From Candidatus Kryptoniota bacterium (GTDB taxonomy: Bacteria > Bacteroidota > Ignavibacteria > Kryptoniales > JAKASW01): 64,000 nt of DNA. The notes under the pieces were generated by a model, which was not told the DNA's origin, ran no database searches, and worked only from the letters and a program-made list of their open reading frames with translations. The translations under genes and the position numbers were made by a program. Positions 11,270-62,421 of the stretch are shown in pieces (the first letter of the stretch is position 1; each line of letters starts with the position of its first letter). Location: NCBI GenBank assembly GCA_036567965.1, contig DATCTN010000017.1:62001-126000 (forward strand). The letters are read 5' to 3'.

Positions 11270-12982
11270 CTAAAAAAGTTTGACCTCGCTGTTCGGATCG
11301 AGATAAAACCGCAAGATCCTCACCTTGCAGAAGAACTCATCCTCATCGACCTTGAAATCCTTTGGATCAAGATTCTTCACTTTCATCGTCTGCCAATCAG
11401 TCGTCGGGTGAATGAACTCGAAATGATCCCTGGCGGTCGTGACCTTTATCGGCATCTTGAAGGCCTTATCGTCCGCGTTCCATTTAAATCGCAACTCAGT
11501 CTCGTTCCCCTTCTTTCCTGCGATTACCATCAATTCCGGAAGCGTGGCGTATCGGTAATACTGCTCGAAGAAATAGTTATAATCTGAATTGGTTCTCTCA
11601 TTTATATAGTTGATGAGATCATCCGCGTCGACGGTTTTGTACGCATACTTCTCCTGGAAGCCCTTCAGGATTGAGAACCACAGCGGATCATCGTTTATGA
11701 CATCCCGTAGCGTGTTCAGCACGAGCTGACCTTTGTCGTACATGTCGCCGGAGCCTTCCTGGTTCACATTGTACGGCCCGATCATCGGCTTGTCGTTCCT
11801 GACATTCTGCCTCTTTGCATTTATATAATCGAGCGCCGCTTTGTGACCCCAGTTGTACTCGACATACAGGGCTTCGGCATAAGCGCCGAAACTTTCGTGC
11901 ATCCACATATCGGCAAGATCCTTGGATGTCAAGCTGTTTCCCCACCACTCGTGCGCGCTCTCGTGTACGATTATGAAATCGAATTTCAATCCGACATCCG
12001 AACTTGCGCGACCTTCGTATCCCATCTGGTAGTGGTTGCCATAAGCCACCGCGGTCTGATGTTCCATACCGTTGTGAGACGACTCTATCAATTTGTAGCC
12101 GTCCCGGTAAAACGGGTATTTGCCGAAATATTTCTCATATGCTGCCAGCATCGTCTTTACTTCTTTGAATTGTACTTTGGCCTTTTGCAAATTTTCCGGA
12201 AGGACGTAATAATCGAGCGTCAGTTTGCTGCCGTCACTGCTCGTGTAAGTATCGCTGAAGTGCGAGTAGACGCCAATGTTGAGCGTGACATCGTAATTGT
12301 TGATCGGATAACTCATGAACCAGTTGTATTGGCTCATGCCGTTCGGCAAATCGATCTTGCTGCGTAGTCTTCCGTTGGAGACATCCTCGAGATTTGATGG
12401 TACGGTAACAGTGAGCAGCATACTGTCCGGCTCGTCGGATTGGTGATCCTTGTTCGGCCACCACAAGCTCGCACCGGTGCCCTGACACGTGACCATGATC
12501 CACGGGCGGCCTTCCTTGTCCCTCTTCCAAACGAAGCCGCCGTCCCAGGGCGGATTCTTGGCGATCTGCGGTTTGCCCGAGTAGTAGAACAAGATCTGGT
12601 GCTCGGTCCCGGCCTCGAGAAGTTTGGGAAGGTCGATGAATACCGCCCCGAACTCGCGCGAATATTTCAGCAGTGTGCCGTCTTCCGCTGCGATGCTGTC
12701 TACATTCATGTTCGCGAACAAATCCACCTGCATCCTGTCGAAAGGGGTCACGACCTTGAACCTGATTGTGTTTGATCCGCGGACCGACTGAGTCGATGTA
12801 TCAACCGTGATATCGAGGTGATAATACGTGACATCATAGCACGTCCGGACAGGAGAGAGAAAACCGCGGAGGGTATCGGCCTTGGTGAACGGTCCCCAGT
12901 TATAATGCGACGGCTCCTGCGCCAAGATTTTCTGGGACGTTAGAATCGAAATGAATAAGAAAAGGTATGCGAGTCTCTTCAT
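11270..12982 (-). CDS. M1 family metallopeptidase (exported aminopeptidase)
   Basis: Zinc aminopeptidase of the M1 (gluzincin) family. With the start at 12982 it has a clean signal peptide (MKRLAYLFLFISILTSQKIL, then AQE). The HEXXH-18-E zinc site is H340-E-S-A-H344 followed by E363 (MWMHESF), and the substrate-binding GxMEN-type motif appears as GMEHQ (about 305-309). Length about 570 residues fits single-chain bacterial M1 enzymes lacking the long ERAP-like C-terminal domain. The chosen ATG follows GGTGGA; reading further upstream adds a non-conserved tail in front of the signal peptide. It probably degrades peptides in the periplasm or outside the cell. Confidence 0.93.
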   Translation of the reverse strand: MKRLAYLFLFISILTSQKILAQEPSHYNWGPFTKADTLRGFLSPVRTCYDVTYYHLDITVDTSTQSVRGSNTIRFKVVTPFDRMQVDLFANMNVDSIAAEDGTLLKYSREFGAVFIDLPKLLEAGTEHQILFYYSGKPQIAKNPPWDGGFVWKRDKEGRPWIMVTCQGTGASLWWPNKDHQSDEPDSMLLTVTVPSNLEDVSNGRLRSKIDLPNGMSQYNWFMSYPINNYDVTLNIGVYSHFSDTYTSSDGSKLTLDYYVLPENLQKAKVQFKEVKTMLAAYEKYFGKYPFYRDGYKLIESSHNGMEHQTAVAYGNHYQMGYEGRASSDVGLKFDFIIVHESAHEWWGNSLTSKDLADMWMHESFGAYAEALYVEYNWGHKAALDYINAKRQNVRNDKPMIGPYNVNQEGSGDMYDKGQLVLNTLRDVINDDPLWFSILKGFQEKYAYKTVDADDLINYINERTNSDYNYFFEQYYRYATLPELMVIAGKKGNETELRFKWNADDKAFKMPIKVTTARDHFEFIHPTTDWQTMKVKNLDPKDFKVDEDEFFCKVRILRFYLDPNSEVKLF

Positions 12983-27997: not shown

Positions 27998-28528
27998 ACG
28001 GGAACACAGCAATTTCTTTTAATCGCCCTTGTGGCGATTATTGTAGCAGCGGGAGTCGCGATCGCTATCTCTTACTTTATTTCAAATAAACAGGACGCTG
28101 AGATTGACGAGACCATTAACCAACTTACGAATATTACAGCTGAGGCGCAGCAATGGTATAGGAAGCCGTCGGTGCTTGGAGGTGGCAACTGGTCGTTCAC
28201 CGGTTTTACTCTGGCGGCGATTTCTCAACCTGATTCTACCGAAGTTGCTTCGTTCAATGTCGTTTCTGCAAAGGGAGACACGCTCTCTCTAGAGGCAATG
28301 GGCTCAGATTTCACCGTTGACGTAAATGTCACCCATACCTCTATGGGGAATTGTCAAGTCATCAAGGGAAAGGGAAAGGGAAACGGCAAGGGAAATGGCA
28401 ACGGGAACGGCAATGGAAATGGTAACGGGAATGGAAATAGTAATGGTAATGGGAATGGAAATAGTAATGGTAACGGGAATGGAAATGGTAATGGTAACCG
28501 CAATGGTAATAGTAATGGGGGAAATTAA
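27998..28528 (+). CDS. Pilin-like single-TM protein with Gly-Asn repeat tail; non-AUG (ACG) start
   Basis: One of three paralogs here (others at 39364 and 41947). The N-terminus GTQQFLLIALVAIIVAAGVA is a membrane helix right after the start, as in pilins, followed by the family motif WYRKPSVLGGG and a small beta-rich part. The tail (from about residue 122) is a long GN/GNGNSN low-complexity run. The first residue aligned with the methionine of the 39801 paralog is encoded by ACG at 27998, seven bases after GAGGAGG; the nearest standard start (GTG 28031) would remove a third of the membrane helix and has no RBS. An in-frame stop at 27959 excludes an upstream start. Function unknown; a surface filament or envelope subunit is inference. 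Confidence 0.7.
   Translation, partial: TGTQQFLLIALVAIIVAAGVAIAISYFISNKQDAEIDETINQLTNITAEAQQWYRKPSVLGGGNWSFTGFTLAAISQPDSTEVASFNVVSAKGDTLSLEAMGSDFTVDVNVTHTSMGNCQVIKGKGKGNGKGNGNGNGNGNGNGNGNSNGNGNGNSNGNGNGNGNGNRNGNSNGGN
28361..28525 (+). repeat. Low-complexity Gly-Asn coding repeat
   Basis: Tandem imperfect 6-base units of the type GGNAAY (GGAAAT, GGTAAC, GGCAAC) encode alternating glycine and asparagine with a few lysine, serine and arginine replacements. Such tracts readily expand or contract by slippage, so length variation between strains is likely. Confidence 0.85.
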
Positions 28529-51781: not shown

Positions 51782-52601
51782 TCCTTAATATCGGAGGAGC
51801 TCCGTCGAAATGCGGAGCGGAGCGGGTGAAGAGGGCGCCCGAGGTGATTCTAGATTTCAATTGATAATCCGGATAATGACTCCTTTGATGCCACTGAAAT
51901 GCACCATCATTGACTACCCTATCTCGCCCAAAGATGACAGTAAGAGAATTTGTCGGTGTGACATTTATTTTAAAGTAGTCCGCTGCCAATCTTGGTTGTG
52001 ACTCAGTTTGAGTTTTGATTAGACACCTTCACAAACGGCCTTCGGAAAAAATGGCGATTAGTCCCGATCCCGGCCCGCGGGATCGAGGATGCCGCATCAG
52101 AAATAAAACCATAATGTAGAAGCGGCAGAAATTTCCAGAGTGGGTTTAAGTCCCGCCCATTTTTTTCCGTAAGCTCGACGGGTCGAGCGGATGCGCCGCA
52201 TATACAATAATTGGAGGCGCAAAAAGGACGCCCCGCGAAAATGGTCCCGACTGCCGTCCCGTCCAAATATTTGTGTGTCGGGATGCCGCAAGGCGGCATC
52301 GGGAACGTCCCGCCCTCTGTTGTGCGCGATTTTTTGAATAGCTCTGTTAATCCTCTGTTGAACAAAAAATCGCCATAACCATTCTGTCGAGACATGAATA
52401 AACTGTTCCTCTTCAGCGGGACTCTCCCGAAGGGATCCCTTTCCCTAAGGGACTCCTTCGGAGCGGGACATTTTCGCAAGGGGTACAACAGTTACTTATT
52501 GAAATTGAATCACCACCCCAATCTTAAAATCCGTAAATCTCTTTCGCACTTTTATTATATTTTCCACGTTAAATCATTGACAAGATTCTAAGGAGATGCA
52601 A
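51782..52601. repeat. Long intergenic region with dispersed repeats and hairpins
   Basis: About 820 bases without a supported gene. It contains a copy of the repeat found in the cassette array (52256-52304), a hairpin-rich stretch at 52416-52471 (CTCCCGAAGGGA, CCCTTTCCCTAAGGG, CTCCTTCGGAG), and a 9-base inverted pair ATGGCGATT (52051) / AATCGCCAT (52368). TTCACAAACGG at about 52028 resembles the 5' end of the attC-like sites (CCTAACAAACGG), so part of it may be a decayed site. Confidence 0.5.
52256..52304 (+). repeat. Dispersed repeat, copy 1
   Basis: GTCCCGTCCAAATATTTG followed by TGTCGGGATGCCGC-AAG-GCGGCATCGGGA. The same 49-base block recurs at 58267-58315 and 61263-61311, inside the attC-like elements. 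Its second half folds into a GATGCCGC/GCGGCATC stem. This copy lies outside the array. Confidence 0.75.
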
Positions 52602-55291: not shown

Positions 55292-55444
55292 AGATGGTGC
55301 TCGGTGAAAGAAGTTAGACACGGATGAGACGGATTCCCACGGATGAGATTGTTCATAAATAGCTTTTGTAAAACCATTATTTTTTGAATGTCGATGTTCG
55401 ATGGGGCAAATGAACCGTCTGCATCTTCAAGCGAAGCGGAGATC

Positions 55445-55786
55445 ATGGCATACAACGAAGAATTGATGGTGCGTATAAGATCTTTGTTAGCAGGCCAGCG
55501 CAGCGTCAAAGAGAAAAAGATGTTCAGTGGAGTGACCTTCATGGTGAACGGCAAGATGTGTGTGAGCACAAGTCACGAGAGGATATTGTGCAGGATCGAT
55601 CCTGCGCTACATGAAGAAGCGATCAGTAAGGAAGGTTGCCGTGCCATGAGGATGAAAGGGAAGGAACTAAGAGGGTGGGTATTTGTCAGCGAGGACGCAA
55701 TTCAAACTAAGAAAGAGCTCGAGTATTGGGTAGGACTCGCCCTAGATTTCAACAGGAGGGCGAAGTCATCGAAGAAAAAGGGCTAA
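55445..55786 (+). CDS. TfoX N-terminal domain protein
   Basis: A 113-residue small protein matching the TfoX_N fold: MAYNEELMVRIRSLLAGQRS, KKMFSGVTFMVNGKMC, and a lysine-rich C-terminus. Isolated TfoX_N proteins are common and not shown to be competence regulators. I place the start at ATG 55445, where the family usually begins and GCGGAG lies upstream; the frame is open to 55388. Confidence 0.8.
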   Translation: MAYNEELMVRIRSLLAGQRSVKEKKMFSGVTFMVNGKMCVSTSHERILCRIDPALHEEAISKEGCRAMRMKGKELRGWVFVSEDAIQTKKELEYWVGLALDFNRRAKSSKKKG

Positions 55787-55968: not shown

Positions 55969-56120
55969 TTTGCAAGCATAGGGATGCGGGAAAGTGAAAC
56001 TGGATGTAATCAAAGCTAGTTTGTTATCTCCACGATAAGTAGGATCCGCATTTATGTGGATGAAGAATCGTCAGGGAAAATAGATAGTCCATTTGGTTGC
56101 GTTTAGCAGACAAAAAGAAA

Positions 56121-56180
56121 ATAACCGCCATATGGCGTATTTCATCCTATACGGGCAGCATAAACGACATATGACGTGAT
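56121..56180 (+). promoter_or_regulatory. Twin near-identical palindromes before the first cassette
   Basis: ATAACCGCCATATGGCGTAT and ATAAACGACATATGACGTGA are two related palindromes centred on CATATG, 39 bases apart centre to centre (about four helical turns). They could be operators, or recombinase-binding repeats of an attI-like site, since a GTTAGGC core lies 15 bases downstream. Confidence 0.45.
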
Positions 56181-56187
56181 TGCAGTA

Positions 56188-56194
56188 GTTAGGC
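56188..56194 (+). other. GTTAGGC core (putative first recombination site of the array)
   Basis: Matches the integron core GTTRRRY and is followed by GCC, as in the site at 59426. It lies 27 bases before the first cassette gene. No matching GCCTAAC half is found upstream, so it could be an attI-type simple site or the end of a decayed attC. Confidence 0.45.
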
Positions 56195-56220
56195 GCCATT
56201 TTTAAAAAGGAGGTTGAAGT

Positions 56221-56631
56221 ATGAAAAGGTATTGGATGCTTCTTTGCTCTCTGCTGTTTGTCGCTTGCACTACCACGGGTCCGTCATCGAATCTTTCAAT
56301 TCAGTCAGGGACCTACACTGGCACTTTCTCTATCACGAATTATGTGGGAACTGATAGTGCCTCAACGCAACAAACCCAAGCAACTTTTGCTTTCTCAGAT
56401 ACTGGATGGTACACTTGCGGAGGTGGACTCGTCCCGACAGGCGGAGGGAAGTACAATGTCACTGGCGACTCATTGTATTTGCAAGATATGGTGGCCCACC
56501 TTGCTATCTTTGACTGGACACTTATACTTAATGGATCGTTTCACGGGGCAGTGGATGGAAACAAGTTGACTCTAACACAAGACGACAAAGCTTACCATCG
56601 CTACCGGAATATTGTGATCACTCGTCAATGA
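56221..56631 (+). CDS. Cassette gene 1: small lipoprotein of unknown function
   Basis: A 136-residue protein with a lipoprotein signal (MLLCSLLFVAC, lipobox LFVAC, C16) and a beta-rich body (GTYTGTFSITNY, TFAFSDTGWYTCGGG, NGSFHGAVDGNKLTLT), which resembles lipocalin-like or calycin-like envelope lipoproteins. AAGGAGG lies about nine bases upstream of the ATG. First gene of the putative cassette array, on the same strand as all others. Unknown function. Confidence 0.75.
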   Translation: MKRYWMLLCSLLFVACTTTGPSSNLSIQSGTYTGTFSITNYVGTDSASTQQTQATFAFSDTGWYTCGGGLVPTGGGKYNVTGDSLYLQDMVAHLAIFDWTLILNGSFHGAVDGNKLTLTQDDKAYHRYRNIVITRQ

Positions 56632-56653
56632 AAGGAGTTTAGAAAACGGCGGG

Positions 56654-56807
56654 TAATAACGGGAATCAACGACGCTCGATGATTGTGTATCATGGTGCTC
56701 GCCCGCCTTCCGCAAGTCCCGCCTTGCGGGACGGCGGACAGGCTCCACGCCGCGCACATTCCAGGAAGAAGGTGCGGGGCTCGGCGTGAATCCCGCAAAC
56801 GTTATGC
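56654..56807 (+). other. attC-like site a
   Basis: Begins near TAATAAC-GGGAATC and ends with GTTATGC (56801-56807). CGGGA and TCCCG near the two ends can pair. The core (56698-56752) holds the hairpin GTCCCGC-CTT-GCGGGAC nested in CCGCC...GGCGG. From GAATCA onward about 90 bases are nearly identical to site c at 59286. It starts 23 bases after the stop of gene 1, as expected for a cassette-borne site. Confidence 0.6.
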
Positions 56808-56872
56808 GCAAGCGGCACGCTCGGATTTTCCGAATGCCCTTGCCCAAAACCCGTTTGGCCGTAGGACTTTAG

Positions 56873-57427
56873 ATGAATCGCACAAATCACAGGTATGAGC
56901 GGGCACTTTTGCGTAACCTGCATGAGCTTCTCCGTTGTCTTTCATACCGCAACGCATATAACAGCCTCTGTGAAGCTGCCCCCGTTACCGATTGGTCATT
57001 CTTCTCGTATGCATCGCTGGCCCTGTACAATGGTATGTTTGACCACGCGATGAAGGTTCTAGACAAACACAAGGACTCAGCTTCGTTCTTCTACCTTTAT
57101 AAATGCAACCCAACTCTTATCCAAACCGAGCTTGACAAGGTGGGCCTTAGGTATGAGGATGCTGAGGCTCTTTCAACCAAACTCAAGGCAATACGAGATA
57201 AAGACCAATTTCATATTGATAGGAAAGCCCTCTTCAATCCAAAAGCTGTGTGGGCCGACGCGAACATAACGGGCGATTCCTTCAACGTCGTGATGGACAA
57301 GCTCTGGACTGCGCTGAATTCTCTTTACGAAAGTCATCATGAACGCAAGTTTGGACAACCGGTTTACTCTGGCGAAGATGTTAAATCAATCATCGATGCA
57401 GTCAAATCAAAAGGAATAATAGTGTGA
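56873..57427 (+). CDS. Cassette gene 2: HEPN-like protein
   Basis: A 184-residue all-helical protein. The segment KLKAIRDKDQFHIDRKA contains R108-x5-H114, the R-X4-6-H signature of HEPN RNase domains, and VMDKLWTALNSLYES looks like the matching last helix, similar to AbiU2/AbiV-type HEPN proteins. No signal or membrane segment. If HEPN is right, it may cut RNA in defence or stress. It shares one cassette interval with the two-TM protein 91 bases downstream, since no attC-like site lies between them. Family call is inference from motif and helicity. Confidence 0.6.
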   Translation: MNRTNHRYERALLRNLHELLRCLSYRNAYNSLCEAAPVTDWSFFSYASLALYNGMFDHAMKVLDKHKDSASFFYLYKCNPTLIQTELDKVGLRYEDAEALSTKLKAIRDKDQFHIDRKALFNPKAVWADANITGDSFNVVMDKLWTALNSLYESHHERKFGQPVYSGEDVKSIIDAVKSKGIIV

Positions 57428-57518
57428 TCTTCAAGATTATCTCGCGGCTGTTCTGACAATGGATAGTCAGGGAGTCAGCAATTAGTCGAGGACAGAGGTT
57501 AATTTAATCGGAGCTTGC

Positions 57519-58157
57519 ATGTCTAACTTATTATCTAGATTGAATGGTTGGCAGAGGCTTTGGTTTGTCTTTACTATCATTTGTTTTATTCTGACCACAA
57601 TCTTTGTCGTGGTTGGACAGAGGAAAACCAACGCTGTGGAAGATGAAGCTATTATAACGAAGCTCAATGCAGATGAGGTCAAGAAATTCCGAATTACTTT
57701 TCTTTCCAGTAGTGACACATCACATAAGGAGCCATGGACGAAATATCAGGCTCAGGAAAAAATCTTTGTGAAAGAAATGAATCCATTTGACCAGTTTGTC
57801 GGACGATCTAACAGTAAAAAGACAGCAAATGAATTTGACCCCGACGCTTATTTACAGAAGTTACGTCTTGCCGTTATCGATACGGTTGAATTTCCCAATG
57901 ATATGAGTAACAATGACGTCCAAGACTTTATTAGGAAATACGATAATCTGGATACCATTCGTATTCGTGCCGCAGGTTTAATTGTGGAGCGAAACAGAAA
58001 GCAAGTCACACAAGCGAGAAATGAAAATAACAAAGGCAGGCAATCGAATGTCAGGTTGATACTGTACGGATACGTTGCCTGGCTCAGCTTTGTCGTGTCG
58101 ATCTATCTACTCGGTTATGGAATAGGTTGGATTTATCATGGCTTCAAGAAAAGTTGA
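57519..58157 (+). CDS. Cassette gene 3: two-TM protein of unknown function
   Basis: A 212-residue protein with one membrane helix near the N-terminus (LWFVFTIICFILTTIFVVV, about 14-32), a central soluble region of about 140 residues rich in charged residues, and a second helix near the C-terminus (VAWLSFVVSIYLLGYGIGWI). The NGWQRLWFV start occurs in many small membrane proteins of mobile elements. RBS GGAG five bases before the ATG. AT-rich compared with the chromosome genes. With the HEPN-like gene it may form a toxin plus membrane-sensor pair; that is speculation. Confidence 0.65.
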   Translation: MSNLLSRLNGWQRLWFVFTIICFILTTIFVVVGQRKTNAVEDEAIITKLNADEVKKFRITFLSSSDTSHKEPWTKYQAQEKIFVKEMNPFDQFVGRSNSKKTANEFDPDAYLQKLRLAVIDTVEFPNDMSNNDVQDFIRKYDNLDTIRIRAAGLIVERNRKQVTQARNENNKGRQSNVRLILYGYVAWLSFVVSIYLLGYGIGWIYHGFKKS

Positions 58158-58180
58158 CGGAGTCACGCAACACAACGAAC

Positions 58181-58421
58181 GCCTAACAAACGGGACAAAG
58201 ACGCCGACCTGCGTCGCGATGGAGAGCATTGCGACTTCGGTCGACAAGCTCCCCGACAAAGAGCATGTCCCGTCCAAATTATTTATATGTCGGGATGCCG
58301 TGAAGCGGCATCGGGTCAGGCTCAAATGGAATCCCGCTTCCCCGAAGGGGTCCTTCGGGCATGGCGCGGACATTTTATGAAGAAGGAGCGCGCCACGACT
58401 CTTTTCTCTTGGACGCTATGC
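58181..58421 (+). other. attC-like site b
   Basis: Starts GCCTAAC-AAAC-GGGACAAAG (58181-58200), a good 5' half. The 3' core is GCTATGC (58415-58421), a poor match, so the site may be inactive. It contains the 49-base dispersed repeat and the hairpin CTTCCCCGAAGGGG. About 125 bases (58192-58316) are nearly identical to site e. At 241 bases it is long for an attC. Confidence 0.5.
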
Positions 58422-58449
58422 GCAATTTTACTCAGCACAGCGAAGCTTT

Positions 58450-59262
58450 ATGAAGAAACTGCAACGATTCATCAATTCTGAGGCAGTGAACCGCCTCGCT
58501 AGCATTGCAACGTTACTGGCGTTTCTGCTAAGTATTCTCAGTTACCTGATCGCAAAATTACCAGTTCCCTCATATCTTCATCAGCTAAGTATTTTCCTTC
58601 AACAGTATATAAACACGATATACTCGTTGTTTATTCTCTTTGCATTGCTTTACCTGTACTTAGTTTATCGCAGACTGAAGCGGCGCCTTACCATTGGCTT
58701 TCGGGATAATTTCAAAGGGAACCCTCATCGCAACTGGGAATACAAGGGTGAATGGACGGTTCAAGACGAGGACACACTCTGTGTTCGTGCATCCGACGAA
58801 GGTGGAATTACGAAAGTTGGGGCGCTTTGGGAAAACTATGATTTTTCTTTCCAAGCTAAGATTGTAAATAAATGTTCGGGATGGATTGTGCGGGCTCAAG
58901 ATCTTAACAGTTATGTAATGATACAGTGTCAAAGAGATATACTCGTCCCACATCAAAAGCTGGTACAGCCTCTTTTTCAGCAGGCTCCGAATCCGCAACC
59001 TCAAGGAAGTCCTGCTTTCGTAATCACTAGTTACCAGGTTGGCTGGAGGGTCCTTCCAACCGTAACTCACAATCTTCATCTTGATGACTGGTTCAATGTA
59101 AAGGTGAGGGTACGTGGATCATCCATTGAGGTTTACATCAATGGCTCGCTGGTCTTCCATGAGGACAACTTCACAACAAACCCAATGGGTAGAGTCGGCT
59201 TTCGATGCTTTGGTGATGAAGAATCACACTTCAAAAATGTTAGAGTGGAGCTTATCGATTGA
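58450..59262 (+). CDS. Cassette gene 4: membrane-anchored protein with concanavalin-like (DUF1080-type) domain
   Basis: A 270-residue protein. Two membrane helices lie in the first 75 residues (ASIATLLAFLLSILSYLIA, TIYSLFILFALLYLYLVY). The remaining 190 residues look like a beta-jelly-roll of the 3-keto-disaccharide hydrolase/LamG type: WEYKGEWTVQDEDTLCV, DFSFQAKIV, DWFNVKVRVRGSSIEVYING, GRVGFRCFGDEESHFKNVRV. This kind of domain binds or cleaves glycans; active residues cannot be named. Sole gene between sites b and c. Weak RBS. Confidence 0.65.
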   Translation: MKKLQRFINSEAVNRLASIATLLAFLLSILSYLIAKLPVPSYLHQLSIFLQQYINTIYSLFILFALLYLYLVYRRLKRRLTIGFRDNFKGNPHRNWEYKGEWTVQDEDTLCVRASDEGGITKVGALWENYDFSFQAKIVNKCSGWIVRAQDLNSYVMIQCQRDILVPHQKLVQPLFQQAPNPQPQGSPAFVITSYQVGWRVLPTVTHNLHLDDWFNVKVRVRGSSIEVYINGSLVFHEDNFTTNPMGRVGFRCFGDEESHFKNVRVELID

Positions 59263-59274
59263 CCGTGAAACTGA

Positions 59275-59432
59275 GCCTAACAACGCGAATCATCGACTCT
59301 CGATTATTGTTTAGCATGGTTCTCGCCCGCCTTCCGCAAATCCCGCCTTGCGGGACGGCGGACAGGCTTCATGGCGCGCACATTATGTACCCCATGGAGC
59401 GCGCCACGACTTTGTCCGGCAACACGTTAGGC
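59275..59432 (+). other. attC-like site c
   Basis: GCCTAAC (59275-59281) and GTTAGGC (59426-59432) are perfect inverse complements, as the outer R''/R' boxes of an attC must be. The central part (59286-59375) is the same hairpin core as in site a. Length 158 bases. It starts 13 bases after the stop of gene 4 and ends 44 bases before gene 5. Confidence 0.7.
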
Positions 59433-59476
59433 GCCACGCACCCTCATCATAATTCAATCATCAATCGAGTTCGACC

Positions 59477-59992
59477 ATGAGCACAACACGAAAAGCTATC
59501 CCCCTTGCAACGAGACGCCTTGTCCTTCATGAATCAGGCTATCGATGTGCCGTGCCAGTTTGCCGGACGATCCTCACACTCGAGATCCATCATCTCGAGT
59601 ACGTCTCTGAACGGGGCTCTAATGACGCCTCAAACTTGTTGCCCCTTTGTCCGAATTGTCATGCGCTCGAGCAGCAAGGTGTCATTTCCAAGGACTCTCT
59701 CCGATCTTGGAAGATGCTCCTTCTTAGTTTGAATGAAGCGTTCGATAAGCGTTCACTCGATTTTCTTCTTGCTCTTGACAAAATCGAAGATGGGTTGTTT
59801 GTTTCCGGTGAAGGCGTCCTGACGTGCTCATCACTAGTCGCTTCAGATATGATAACCGTGGAGCAAATCGTTCAGGAGGGTATTCGCGAACTCGACGTGA
59901 CCTATCATATCTCATTTACAGCGAAGGGACGCTCTTTCGTCAAGGCTTGGAAAGCAGGCGACCAGAATGCAGCTGTATCGAGGACAACTTGA
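59477..59992 (+). CDS. Cassette gene 5: HNH endonuclease-like protein
   Basis: A 171-residue protein with an N-terminal HNH domain: CAVPVCRTILTLEIHHLEYV, then the Asn in NDASNLLPLCPNCH completes the H-N-H set with zinc-binding CxxxxC and CPNC pairs (about 24-62). The C-terminal 100 residues have no recognised domain and contain strand-like sequence. It is a likely DNA nuclease, probably of the restriction or defence type; the target is unknown. Only gene between sites c and d. Confidence 0.8.
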   Translation: MSTTRKAIPLATRRLVLHESGYRCAVPVCRTILTLEIHHLEYVSERGSNDASNLLPLCPNCHALEQQGVISKDSLRSWKMLLLSLNEAFDKRSLDFLLALDKIEDGLFVSGEGVLTCSSLVASDMITVEQIVQEGIRELDVTYHISFTAKGRSFVKAWKAGDQNAAVSRTT

Positions 59993-60031
59993 TGATCTGG
60001 TGGCTCTCGCAAGGGTTGTGGGCTGTGCGGC

Positions 60032-60185
60032 GCCTAACAAACGGCAACACGGCGCTCGCACGCTGGATAGGCGAAGTTGAAACAAGATTTGGCTAAATGT
60101 AAAGTGCTCGCTCCATTGCTCGCCGCCACGAAATTAGATCACTCATAGTGGCGGCTCGCAGCGGCGTGTTGCCTAAACGTTGGGC
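60032..60185 (+). other. attC site d (textbook integron recombination site)
   Basis: Outer boxes GCCTAAC (60032-60038) and GTTGGGC (60179-60185); inner boxes GGCAACACGGC and GGCGTGTTGCC are inverse complements in 10 of 11 positions, each separated from its outer box by an AAAC or TAAAC spacer. The core has a further hairpin GCCGCCAC/GTGGCGGC (60122-60129 and 60148-60155). This R''-L''...L'-R' order with imperfect inner stem is the defining form of attC. Length 154 bases, 40 bases after the stop of gene 5. Confidence 0.85.
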
Positions 60186-60250
60186 GACACTGTTTTGCTA
60201 TCTGTTTTCGACCATTGAGTTGATGGAGCATCTCACTATCGTTAAGAGCA

Positions 60251-61105
60251 ATGGACAACGATAACACTAGACAGAAGATTCATGAGGTTGCAATGGATCC
60301 GCCACTAGTGGAGAGCAGCAATGCTTACCGGCCTGACGACAACCTCACACTAAGCGCCCTTGGCATCGGCGCTTTCATATTTGCGGATCTGGTGCATGAA
60401 GTGATTGGACACGGCGGTGCGTGCTTGGCAAGTGGAGGAACCATAACACTTTTAACTTCTGTCTACTTCCGCTGCAATCTAAATAGCAAGATTATTGATG
60501 CCGCTGGTCCTCTGGCAAATCTCTTGTTTGGCGGTCTTTTCTGGGCGATTCCTCGCTTTTGGAAAAACATTTCGATACACACACGTGTGTTTGTAGCGTC
60601 CACTATGAGCTTCAACTTCTTTTGGGGATCGGGTTATCTCATATATTCCGGCATCACTAATATTGGGGATTGGGCATATGTGGTTGAAGGCTTGCAGCCG
60701 GTTTGGTTTTGGAGATTCCTCCTATTGCTTCTCGGTGTTACACTATATTACTTGTCGATGCGCGCCCTCGCAAACGGCTTATGGACACTCGTCGCCGTCA
60801 GTGAAGGAGAGAAATCTCGCAGGATAAGAGTGATTTTTATGATCCCTTACGTTGCAGCTGGACTGGCGGAATGTCTTGCTGCATCTTTCGATCGTCAGGG
60901 GTCTCTTTTAGCTATAAAAGATGGAGCGCTTGAAACCTTCTGTGCTTCTATAGGATTCTTGATCGTTGCACGTCGGCTTGCTCAACGAAAAACAAAGGAT
61001 CAATTCAAGTACACCCCAGTCACACGAAAGCTTAGTTGGGTGGTCTTTGTAGCATTGTTGTTAGTCGCGTTCATTGTGACAATGGGGCGCGGGATGAGGT
61101 TTTGA
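60251..61105 (+). CDS. Cassette gene 6: membrane protein with HExxxH motif (M50-like)
   Basis: A 284-residue polytopic protein with six or so membrane helices. In the first helix ADLVHEVIGHGGACLASGG holds a histidine-glutamate-histidine set in HEVIGH (HExxxH, one residue longer than HExxH), and the next segment has DAAGPLANLLFG, recalling the M50 site-2-protease fold, where HExxH and a downstream NPDG-like loop bind zinc. It may be an inactive or unusual intramembrane peptidase, or another metal-binding membrane protein. Only gene between sites d and e. Confidence 0.65.
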   Translation: MDNDNTRQKIHEVAMDPPLVESSNAYRPDDNLTLSALGIGAFIFADLVHEVIGHGGACLASGGTITLLTSVYFRCNLNSKIIDAAGPLANLLFGGLFWAIPRFWKNISIHTRVFVASTMSFNFFWGSGYLIYSGITNIGDWAYVVEGLQPVWFWRFLLLLLGVTLYYLSMRALANGLWTLVAVSEGEKSRRIRVIFMIPYVAAGLAECLAASFDRQGSLLAIKDGALETFCASIGFLIVARRLAQRKTKDQFKYTPVTRKLSWVVFVALLLVAFIVTMGRGMRF

Positions 61106-61163
61106 TGAATCTGGCCTGGCAACAATTCGATGTGCCAATCGAGAATTATTCGCGACTGAAATC

Positions 61164-61516
61164 GCAAAACAACGGACGCATACCATGCGGGACAAAGACG
61201 CCGACCTGCGTCACCATGGAGAGCATCGCGACTTCGGTCGACAAGCTCCCGACCAAGAGCATGTCCCGTCCAAATTATTTATATGTCGGGATGCCGTGAA
61301 GCGGCCTCGGGGCAGGCTTGCGTGCCGAAGGGCACTTCAGCCCGCAGGCAGGCTATTTATGGATCGCTTCCCCGAAGGGGTCCTTGAGACATGCCGCGCA
61401 CATCGCAGGCTTCACGGAGCGCGGCACGAACTTGCGGACCGAAGCGCCTACCTGCCACGAAGCGTTTCGCGTACGCAGGCTTCAGCACGCAGGCGTGATT
61501 GCCGTAAACGTTATTC
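61164..61516 (+). other. attC-like site e (long, partly degenerate)
   Basis: Begins near GCAAAACAACGGACGC (weak 5' box) and ends with GTTATTC (61510-61516). The first half (61191-61311) matches site b almost base for base, including the 49-base repeat. The second half contains further hairpins (CTTCCCCGAAGGGG, GCAGGC repeats). At about 350 bases it is far longer than usual attC sites and may be a composite. Confidence 0.45.
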
Positions 61517-61582: not shown

Positions 61583-62191
61583 ATGGTTACCAACGATAGC
61601 AGAAAGGATGTTGAGCCTTTCAACCGCTGGTCTCACTCGTACGACGATTCATGGATTCGACGATACGCCGATCGAGTGCACGTGGAAATGCTCAATGTGG
61701 TCACCAATGAAAATGCCGCGCCAAATATTGTCCTTGATGTCGGATGCGGGACAGGGCGGTTGCTGCGCAAAGGGCGTGCGCTCTACCCGTCGGCGCAACT
61801 GTTTGGCATTGACCCCGCGGACGGCATGGTCGAAGTCGCACGCAGCCAAATACCATCTGCCACGATTTATTTGGCCGCGGCAGAGTCGCTGCCGCTAGCT
61901 GATTCCTCCGTCGATGTCGTGCTAAGCAGTATCTCATTTCATCACTGGAGTGACCAACTTGCAGCGCTCCGAGAGATAAGTCGCGTTCTTCGCCCGGGAG
62001 GCTGCTTCTGCTTGGCTGACATATCCATGCCAGCGTGGCTCACGAAACTCTTTCGACATTCCAAGATAAAAAGCCCCGCAGCGGTGAGTCAACTCTTAAG
62101 TGAAACAGGCTTGCGGGTTAAGGTGCAGCATGGCACTTTCACACGTTTTATTTTGTTGACCCTTGGCGTCAAGGGATCGAAGGGAGTCTGA
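61583..62191 (+). CDS. Cassette gene 7: class I SAM-dependent methyltransferase
   Basis: A 202-residue Methyltransf_11-type enzyme. SAM-binding motif I is VLDVGCGTGRLL, motif II carries FGIDPADGMVEVA, then AAESLPLADSSVDVVLSSIS and the late LRPGGCFCLADI. The substrate is unknown; related proteins methylate small molecules or quinone-like intermediates. Only gene between sites e and f. Simple RBS. Confidence 0.85.
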   Translation: MVTNDSRKDVEPFNRWSHSYDDSWIRRYADRVHVEMLNVVTNENAAPNIVLDVGCGTGRLLRKGRALYPSAQLFGIDPADGMVEVARSQIPSATIYLAAAESLPLADSSVDVVLSSISFHHWSDQLAALREISRVLRPGGCFCLADISMPAWLTKLFRHSKIKSPAAVSQLLSETGLRVKVQHGTFTRFILLTLGVKGSKGV

Positions 62192-62202
62192 GTATCATCG
62201 GA

Positions 62203-62278
62203 CGAGAACATCTTGAGCCGCCGTGCACATTATATTACGAAGAAGCGTGGCGCGCCATAATTCACGTGGACGTTAGCC
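62203..62278 (+). other. attC-like site f (weak)
   Basis: A GTTAGCC core at 62272-62278 and CGAGAAC near 62203-62209 could be the two ends; GGCGCGCC near 62250 is palindromic as in the ends of sites b and c. Short (76 bases) and poorly matched, so this may be a decayed last site. The following gene begins about 145 bases later. Confidence 0.35.
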
Positions 62279-62421
62279 GGCAGACAATTGAACTGAATTG
62301 AATCAGAGGGCGCAATGAAATCCGCAGCGAATGATCATTATCCTGAATCACGGGCGATATGTTCGTACGACATGGAATAACTGTTTTAGCCAGATCGTTA
62401 ACCGTTAATAAAGGAGAAGCC

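Follow-up and report, generated by a model that had tools for sequence, protein, structure and literature searches.

The closest described relatives of the locus analysed here are integrons, CALINs and the Xer family of tyrosine recombinases. The pdif modules of Acinetobacter are likewise gene modules moved by Xer-like enzymes; unlike the sites considered below, pdif sites are double-stranded and dif-like, without covarying hairpins. With integrons, the present system shares a recombinase gene that adjoins an attI-like site and a series of small cassettes; in both, the core is GTT, the sites fold and carry R and L boxes, and the start and end of a cassette are complementary. It differs from them in that its recombinase lacks the I2 insert (about 41 aa), that a covariance model of its sites (R1) matches no IntI loci, and that the sites found in other genomes of the genus are Y-shaped, with an 11-bp inner stem, a left spacer of 1-2 nt, a right spacer of 4-5 nt and no single L'' bulge. 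Like a CALIN, the array in the window (the whole 64-kb stretch of DNA that was analysed) consists of sites without an adjoining integrase; unlike one, it is bounded by an attI-like end, and the recombinase with which its sites belong, located elsewhere, is not an IntI. XerA and Xer proteins (NF040815, 5hxy, 4a8e) have the same domain layout without I2, and the recombinase encoded on contig C31 of the same genome passes NF040815; that protein, however, is nearest to the IntI structure 2a3v and adjoins a cassette array.

According to a passage of PMC7790495, cassette capture needs I2, which confers single-strand recombination and occurs in no other protein, and part of the same paper names missing intermediates as an obstacle to studying the origin of integrons. 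In an integron-like subgroup the insertion is called 'not fully conserved' in a passage of PMC8138268. Standard integron finding, as described in part of PMC9668308, requires the IntI-specific domain, and an I2-less system would therefore be overlooked or filed as a CALIN. In a literature search that did not extend to preprints and most subscription papers, no paper turned up that describes cassette arrays accompanied by an I2-less recombinase. A recombinase that lacks a part considered essential to integrons has a bearing on their origin. If active, the system would provide, in cultured strains, a natural platform on which cassettes move without I2, and would make integron origin testable. 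It would further bring to light a reservoir of cassettes in groups for which part of PMC9024848 describes IntI integrons as rare.

Site D

A sequence-only reading had singled out positions 60032-60185 (site D; 60029..60188 on the plus strand with its margins) as a textbook attC, and the boxes, spacers and 8-bp core hairpin that it named are all present. The outer boxes, GCCTAAC (60032-60038) and GTTGGGC (60179-60185), correspond to the R'' and R' of an integron attC with a GTT core. Spacers AAAC (60039-60042) and TAAAC (60174-60178) set them apart from inner boxes of 11 nt each, GGCAACACGGC (60043-60053) and GGCGTGTTGCC (60163-60173). The outer 9 bp of these pair (GGCAACACG/CGTGTTGCC), giving an intact inner stem with the paired L''/L' and unpaired central spacers of an attC, here 4 and 5 nt long. 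The core hairpin is formed by GCCGCCAC (60122-60129) and GTGGCGGC (60148-60155). Absent is the canonical extrahelical base bulged from L'': in the DNA fold the 9 bp run uninterrupted and are followed by a 1x1 mismatch at position 10. The asymmetry for which a fold of the bottom strand had been proposed as a check is there, limited to the 4/5 spacer difference and bulges further in.

Folded as DNA, the bottom strand of site D forms the stem, at -34.4 against a shuffle mean of -28.4 (z -1.9). As 5 of 200 shuffles are equally good, this is only modestly above shuffles, and fold energy alone is weak evidence for site D. The site stands beyond chance because R1, trained without window sites, finds it at E 4.7e-11 and because a copy 83% identical elsewhere in the same genome (C30:294315-294472) carries paired changes in both stems. 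Between site D and its copies, L'' CACG / L' CGTG becomes ACCG / CGGT, R''/R' change likewise, and pairing is kept. An Rfam search matched no family. A loose box-and-stem pattern was dropped as evidence, being unspecific (4.6 chance hits per shuffled window).

The cassette array in the window

The array consists of six plus-strand units of one or two genes, each closed by a related intergenic site; all features given here lie on the plus strand. It is flanked by a TfoX-like gene (55388-55786) on the left and, by eye, a serine-hydrolase-like gene from about 62423 on the right. The gene on the left adjoins the array directly and encodes a TfoX N-terminal domain. The left boundary is an attI-like site (56111..56197) with the R' core GTTAGGC at 56188-56194 and the end ..TTGCAGTAGTTAGGCG, as in the attI-like sites that follow the recombinase in congeners. 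No recombinase gene lies beside it, and tblastn with six recombinases as queries matched none in the window. Copies of this left end occur at L095 6883-6970 (C17:40882), L100 8384-8464 (C2:68375) and L099 16378-16459 (C7), and no recombinase was matched at these three loci.

The first cassette gene (56221..56631) encodes 136 aa, lipoprotein-like by eye, has copies at C6 (90%) and C2 (70%), and is followed by the attC-like site A (56648..56810; R1 E 1.5e-14). Cassette 2 (56873..58157) holds two ORFs (56873-57427 and 57519-58157) with no Pfam match; its attC-like site B (58178..58424; R1 E 4.8e-7) has a degenerate R' (GCTATGC) and halves that pair poorly. The gene of cassette 3 (58450..59262) encodes a 3-keto-disaccharide hydrolase-like domain (PF06439) and precedes site C (59272..59435; R1 E 3.1e-11), attC-like with mismatched inner boxes. 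The R' of site C, GTTAGGCGCC (59426-59435), is the start of cassette 4, whose gene (59477..59992) encodes an HNH endonuclease domain (PF01844). The R'' of site D, GGCGCCTAAC, matches that start exactly (10/10) as its reverse complement. Cassette 5 encodes 284 aa without a Pfam match (60251..61105) and is followed by site E (61163..61516), a degenerate copy with R' GTTATTC whose left part is common with site B and which R1 missed. The methyltransferase gene of cassette 6 (61583..62191; PF08241) leads to site F (62187..62281; R' GTTAGCC), the weak right end of the array.

Across the 64-kb window R1 finds sites A, B, C and D with confidence and site F at E 0.06, all on the plus strand and in the array, with none outside it. 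A CALIN is defined by at least two attC sites with no intI beside them; the window has four R1 sites and no recombinase match, and R1 differs from the standard attC model. Among the three adjacent site pairs tested, cassette 4 alone has a start-end match of 10/10, the other two having 7, and site D is the best-preserved copy in the window. Left halves are common to sites A and C and to sites B and E, right parts are common to B and C, and several inner boxes are unpaired. Judging from these shared segments, several of the sites may be hybrids produced by exchange of halves between sites, as by homologous recombination. The array looks partly decayed: apart from D, most of its sites seem to have decayed completely or in part.

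A palindromic block, GTCGGGATGCCG..., lies inside sites B (58277-58315) and E (61273-61311) and again outside the array (52265-52303), and related blocks are found on C7, C15, C16 and C21. Elsewhere in the window, a run of twelve-base repeats (28346-28525) falls inside an ORF that is asparagine/glycine-rich by eye.

Arrays beside a recombinase

The source genome (4.15 Mb) is rated 100% complete and is divided into 32 contigs, with arrays at contig ends. On the minus strand of C31, a recombinase gene is followed within 75 nt by the attI-like site GTTAGCCGCA and then by cassettes ending in window-type sites, four R1 sites standing in a row. The first cassette gene after this recombinase (L093 13967-14761) encodes a CAP12/Pycsar TIR protein, a candidate anti-phage defence. 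The same layout follows the recombinase in five congeners (G002, G003, G007, G008 and G012). Past the recombinase gene no more than about 200 nt of contig remain at G006, G009:C38 and G011:C1, too little to show a site, and at G011:C37 an attI-like end is present with no site in the remaining 2.3 kb. In a Bacteroidetes MAG (L119), a D-type site lies 213 nt past an attI-like site that itself follows the recombinase, with a start-end match of 10/10.

In the recombinase-linked arrays of congeners, the first ten bases of a cassette are the reverse complement of its last ten, mostly 10/10 from attI on; lower values reflect partly undetected cassettes in between and partly an attI pick 20 nt too early at L113. 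In the source genome, 11 of 16 adjacent pairs match at 9/10 or better, against 0 of 5000 random pairings. Not counted among these 16 are the C6 site at 12395, over 4 kb away from its neighbour, and site F, which is set apart by the degenerate site E; their matches are 5/10 and 3/10. Complementarity of cassette start and end is a mark of excisable cassettes. Together with linkage to an attI-like site and a recombinase, it bears out the reading of the repeats as sites of cassette recombination and not as hairpins of a generic kind. A plain match of at least 9/10, sought over a wide distance and without a hairpin, was too noisy to be used (downstream 48/80 loci vs upstream 44/80).

R1 was built from 20 sites (19 distinct) of C31 and its congeners. 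Because the scan that picked the training sites requires an inner stem, pairing there is in part built in by the choice of sites. The scan made no use of helix 4, which lies within the site, and 9 of the 10 pairs of that helix change on both sides. Over all helices 22 of 30 pairs do so, with none of 500 shuffles as good and no slid version near. In the source genome R1 matches 29 places at E<=0.1, among them two C31 sites from the training set. The bottom strands of 8 of the 19 distinct sites were folded: seven gave z values of -3.9 to -6.7, and one (-0.17) was no better than shuffles. Most of the folds form a Y with two inner hairpins and extra bases on the L'-R' side. Of the textbook description, the outer boxes, paired inner boxes and spacers stand; besides the missing L'' bulge, it is qualified by the Y-shaped folds of the relatives, by a source genome without an IntI over the cut-off and by the neighbouring recombinase, which lacks the IntI-specific domain.

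Most probably, site D is where a gene cassette recombines at its right-hand end, and that cassette belongs to an integron-like system run by an IntI/XerA-like tyrosine recombinase that has no I2 insert. By function this is an integron-like cassette system, with recombinase linkage at C31 and in its relatives and a window array without a recombinase of its own. In place of a textbook attC for IntI, the most likely reading is a site belonging to a system with an I2-less recombinase. Since the recombinase beside such sites lacks the IntI-specific domain, a known IntI may be the wrong enzyme for excising the site D cassette.

A possible mechanism of cassette movement

In this scheme, a recombinase gene is followed by an attI-like site, taken to be double-stranded, and then by the cassettes, each of which opens at a GTT core and closes on the reverse complement of its own start; a covarying hairpin and the next GTT come after. 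The I2-less recombinase would cut at the GTT core and release each cassette as a circle whose R'' and R' both derive from that one cassette, and excised cassettes could be re-inserted at attI or at other sites. The window array, with its attI-like end and no recombinase, would depend on an enzyme acting in trans, such as that of C31. The sites, their pairing, the complementary cassette ends, the linkage to the recombinase and the missing insert are observed; from them we infer a folded bottom strand as the substrate, the exact position of the cut and recombination activity itself.

It may be instead that the I2-less recombinase moves the cassettes as double-stranded sites, in the manner of Xer or pdif, and that the hairpins serve another role such as transcription ends or RNA. 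Xer relatives do use double-stranded DNA, and a passage of PMC7790495 holds that I2 gives single-strand activity. This reading is nevertheless unlikely: the inner stem stays paired while its sequence varies freely, which a double-stranded, sequence-specific site would not need, and the hairpin is located between R'' and R'.

A recombinase without the I2 insert

The candidate enzyme of the integron-like system, encoded on C31, is an IntI/XerA-like tyrosine recombinase of 297 aa without the IntI-specific (I2) insert. It has Pfam integrase domains including PF00589, as expected of a tyrosine recombinase such as IntI, and the catalytic residues R150, K175, H240, R243, H266 and Y275 (R-K-HxxR-H-Y) are invariant in 8/8 aligned members. 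It aligns to TIGR02249 on both sides of model positions 180-236 and not over them. Its score on that model is 223.6 bits (cut-off 265), and on the XerA model NF040815 it reaches 222.5, above the cut-off of 220. The I2 domain is absent, as is also apparent from the span between the KG motif and HxxR, which is 65 in the C31 protein and from 61 to 68 across its family (27 of 30 rows gave a value), against 106 in 29 of 31 IntI rows (the other two give none and 72). By sequence and by the fold of an AlphaFold model (mean pLDDT 80.6), the nearest solved structure is the IntI 2a3v. In a tree of 44 rows, IntI forms one group (100/100) that joins among the I2-less rows with weak support (85/87); the root is two Xer rows from the source genome with long branches, which leaves the branching order between IntI and the I2-less rows uncertain. 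C-terminal remnants of recombinases of this family lie near array sites or blocks at L096 11062-11208 (C17:171 kb) and L097 9490-9771 (C22:21.5 kb).

More tentatively, I2-less integrons could be a separate and widespread class with folded sites, in Bacteroidota, Ignavibacteria, Spirochaetota, Nitrospirota and Bacillota, and a grade ancestral to IntI integrons, so that folded single-strand capture would predate the I2 helix. We regard this wider proposal as possible rather than probable.

Distribution and relation to IntI integrons

Eighty named loci were chosen by recombinase similarity alone, and 51 of them had at least 1 kb downstream and were testable. A start-end match with hairpin and GTT was found downstream at 25/51, upstream at 0/48 and in 9/1020 shuffled cases. 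A cassette walk gave at least one cassette downstream at 30/51 and two or more (2-7) at 15/51, leaving 21/51 with no chain; the upstream control gave 2/51, none longer than one (two or more: 0/51). The longest chains are of seven cassettes in Flavobacterium limicola and of five, all 10/10, in the complete genome of Brucepastera parasyntrophica.

Within the class, R1 sites were found in 29 of 149 genomes and the recombinase in 38, with both in 22; the site and recombinase draws are taken as the same 149 genomes, judging from the listed handles. These counts are lower bounds, given strict filters, and the 28 IntI genomes were read from a larger class draw. Presence of R1 sites is associated more strongly with the recombinase (22/29, odds ratio 20, p 1.2e-10) than with IntI (odds ratio 3, p 0.03). 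A recombinase hit is absent in 7 of the 29 genomes with R1 sites, and in 4 of those IntI is absent too. An IntI hit in the L173 genome agrees in contig number, coordinates and bits with one in the class genome G168, so that the class probably contains an Ignavibacteria genome.

A further alternative is that the array is an ordinary integron remnant, that is, that its sites are canonical attCs of a lost or trans-acting IntI, as in a CALIN, and that the I2-less recombinase beside such arrays is incidental. IntI over the cut-off is present in 2/13 genomes of the genus and 52/294 of the class, and CALINs are common according to parts of PMC9024848 and PMC9668308. The source genome itself has no TIGR02249 match over the cut-off; given its 32 contigs and the arrays at contig ends, an IntI could be missing from the assembly. 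This explanation is quite improbable in view of the sites and their neighbours: R1 gave 0 hits at 34 true IntI loci (144,611 bases), 15 genomes of the class have sites and recombinase without IntI, and the arrays begin right past the recombinase stop. True IntI is present in 3 of 18 chosen named genomes and over the cut-off absent in the other 15, the complete Brucepastera included. A last alternative, in which the sites would be REP-like hairpins of a generic intergenic kind, or RNA elements, copied by duplication and never recombined as cassettes, is already disfavoured and very improbable. Some blocks of sites B and E do recur outside arrays (52265-52303; C15 and C16), but neither start-end complementarity nor linkage to an attI-like site and a recombinase across phyla would be expected of them, and Rfam gave no match.

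In the first 3 kb of the reverse strand of L030 (G007:C4), an IntI gene fragment and an attI-like site were seen by eye. The same locus has a canonical-looking attC with an extra L'' base and a catalase-peroxidase-like gene, likewise by eye. Among phage records there were 13 distant matches to the recombinase, all under 60% identity. In Fusibacter sp. 3D3 (the L163 genome, G307), several genes for recombinase-like proteins of about 300 aa are spread over at least five contigs.
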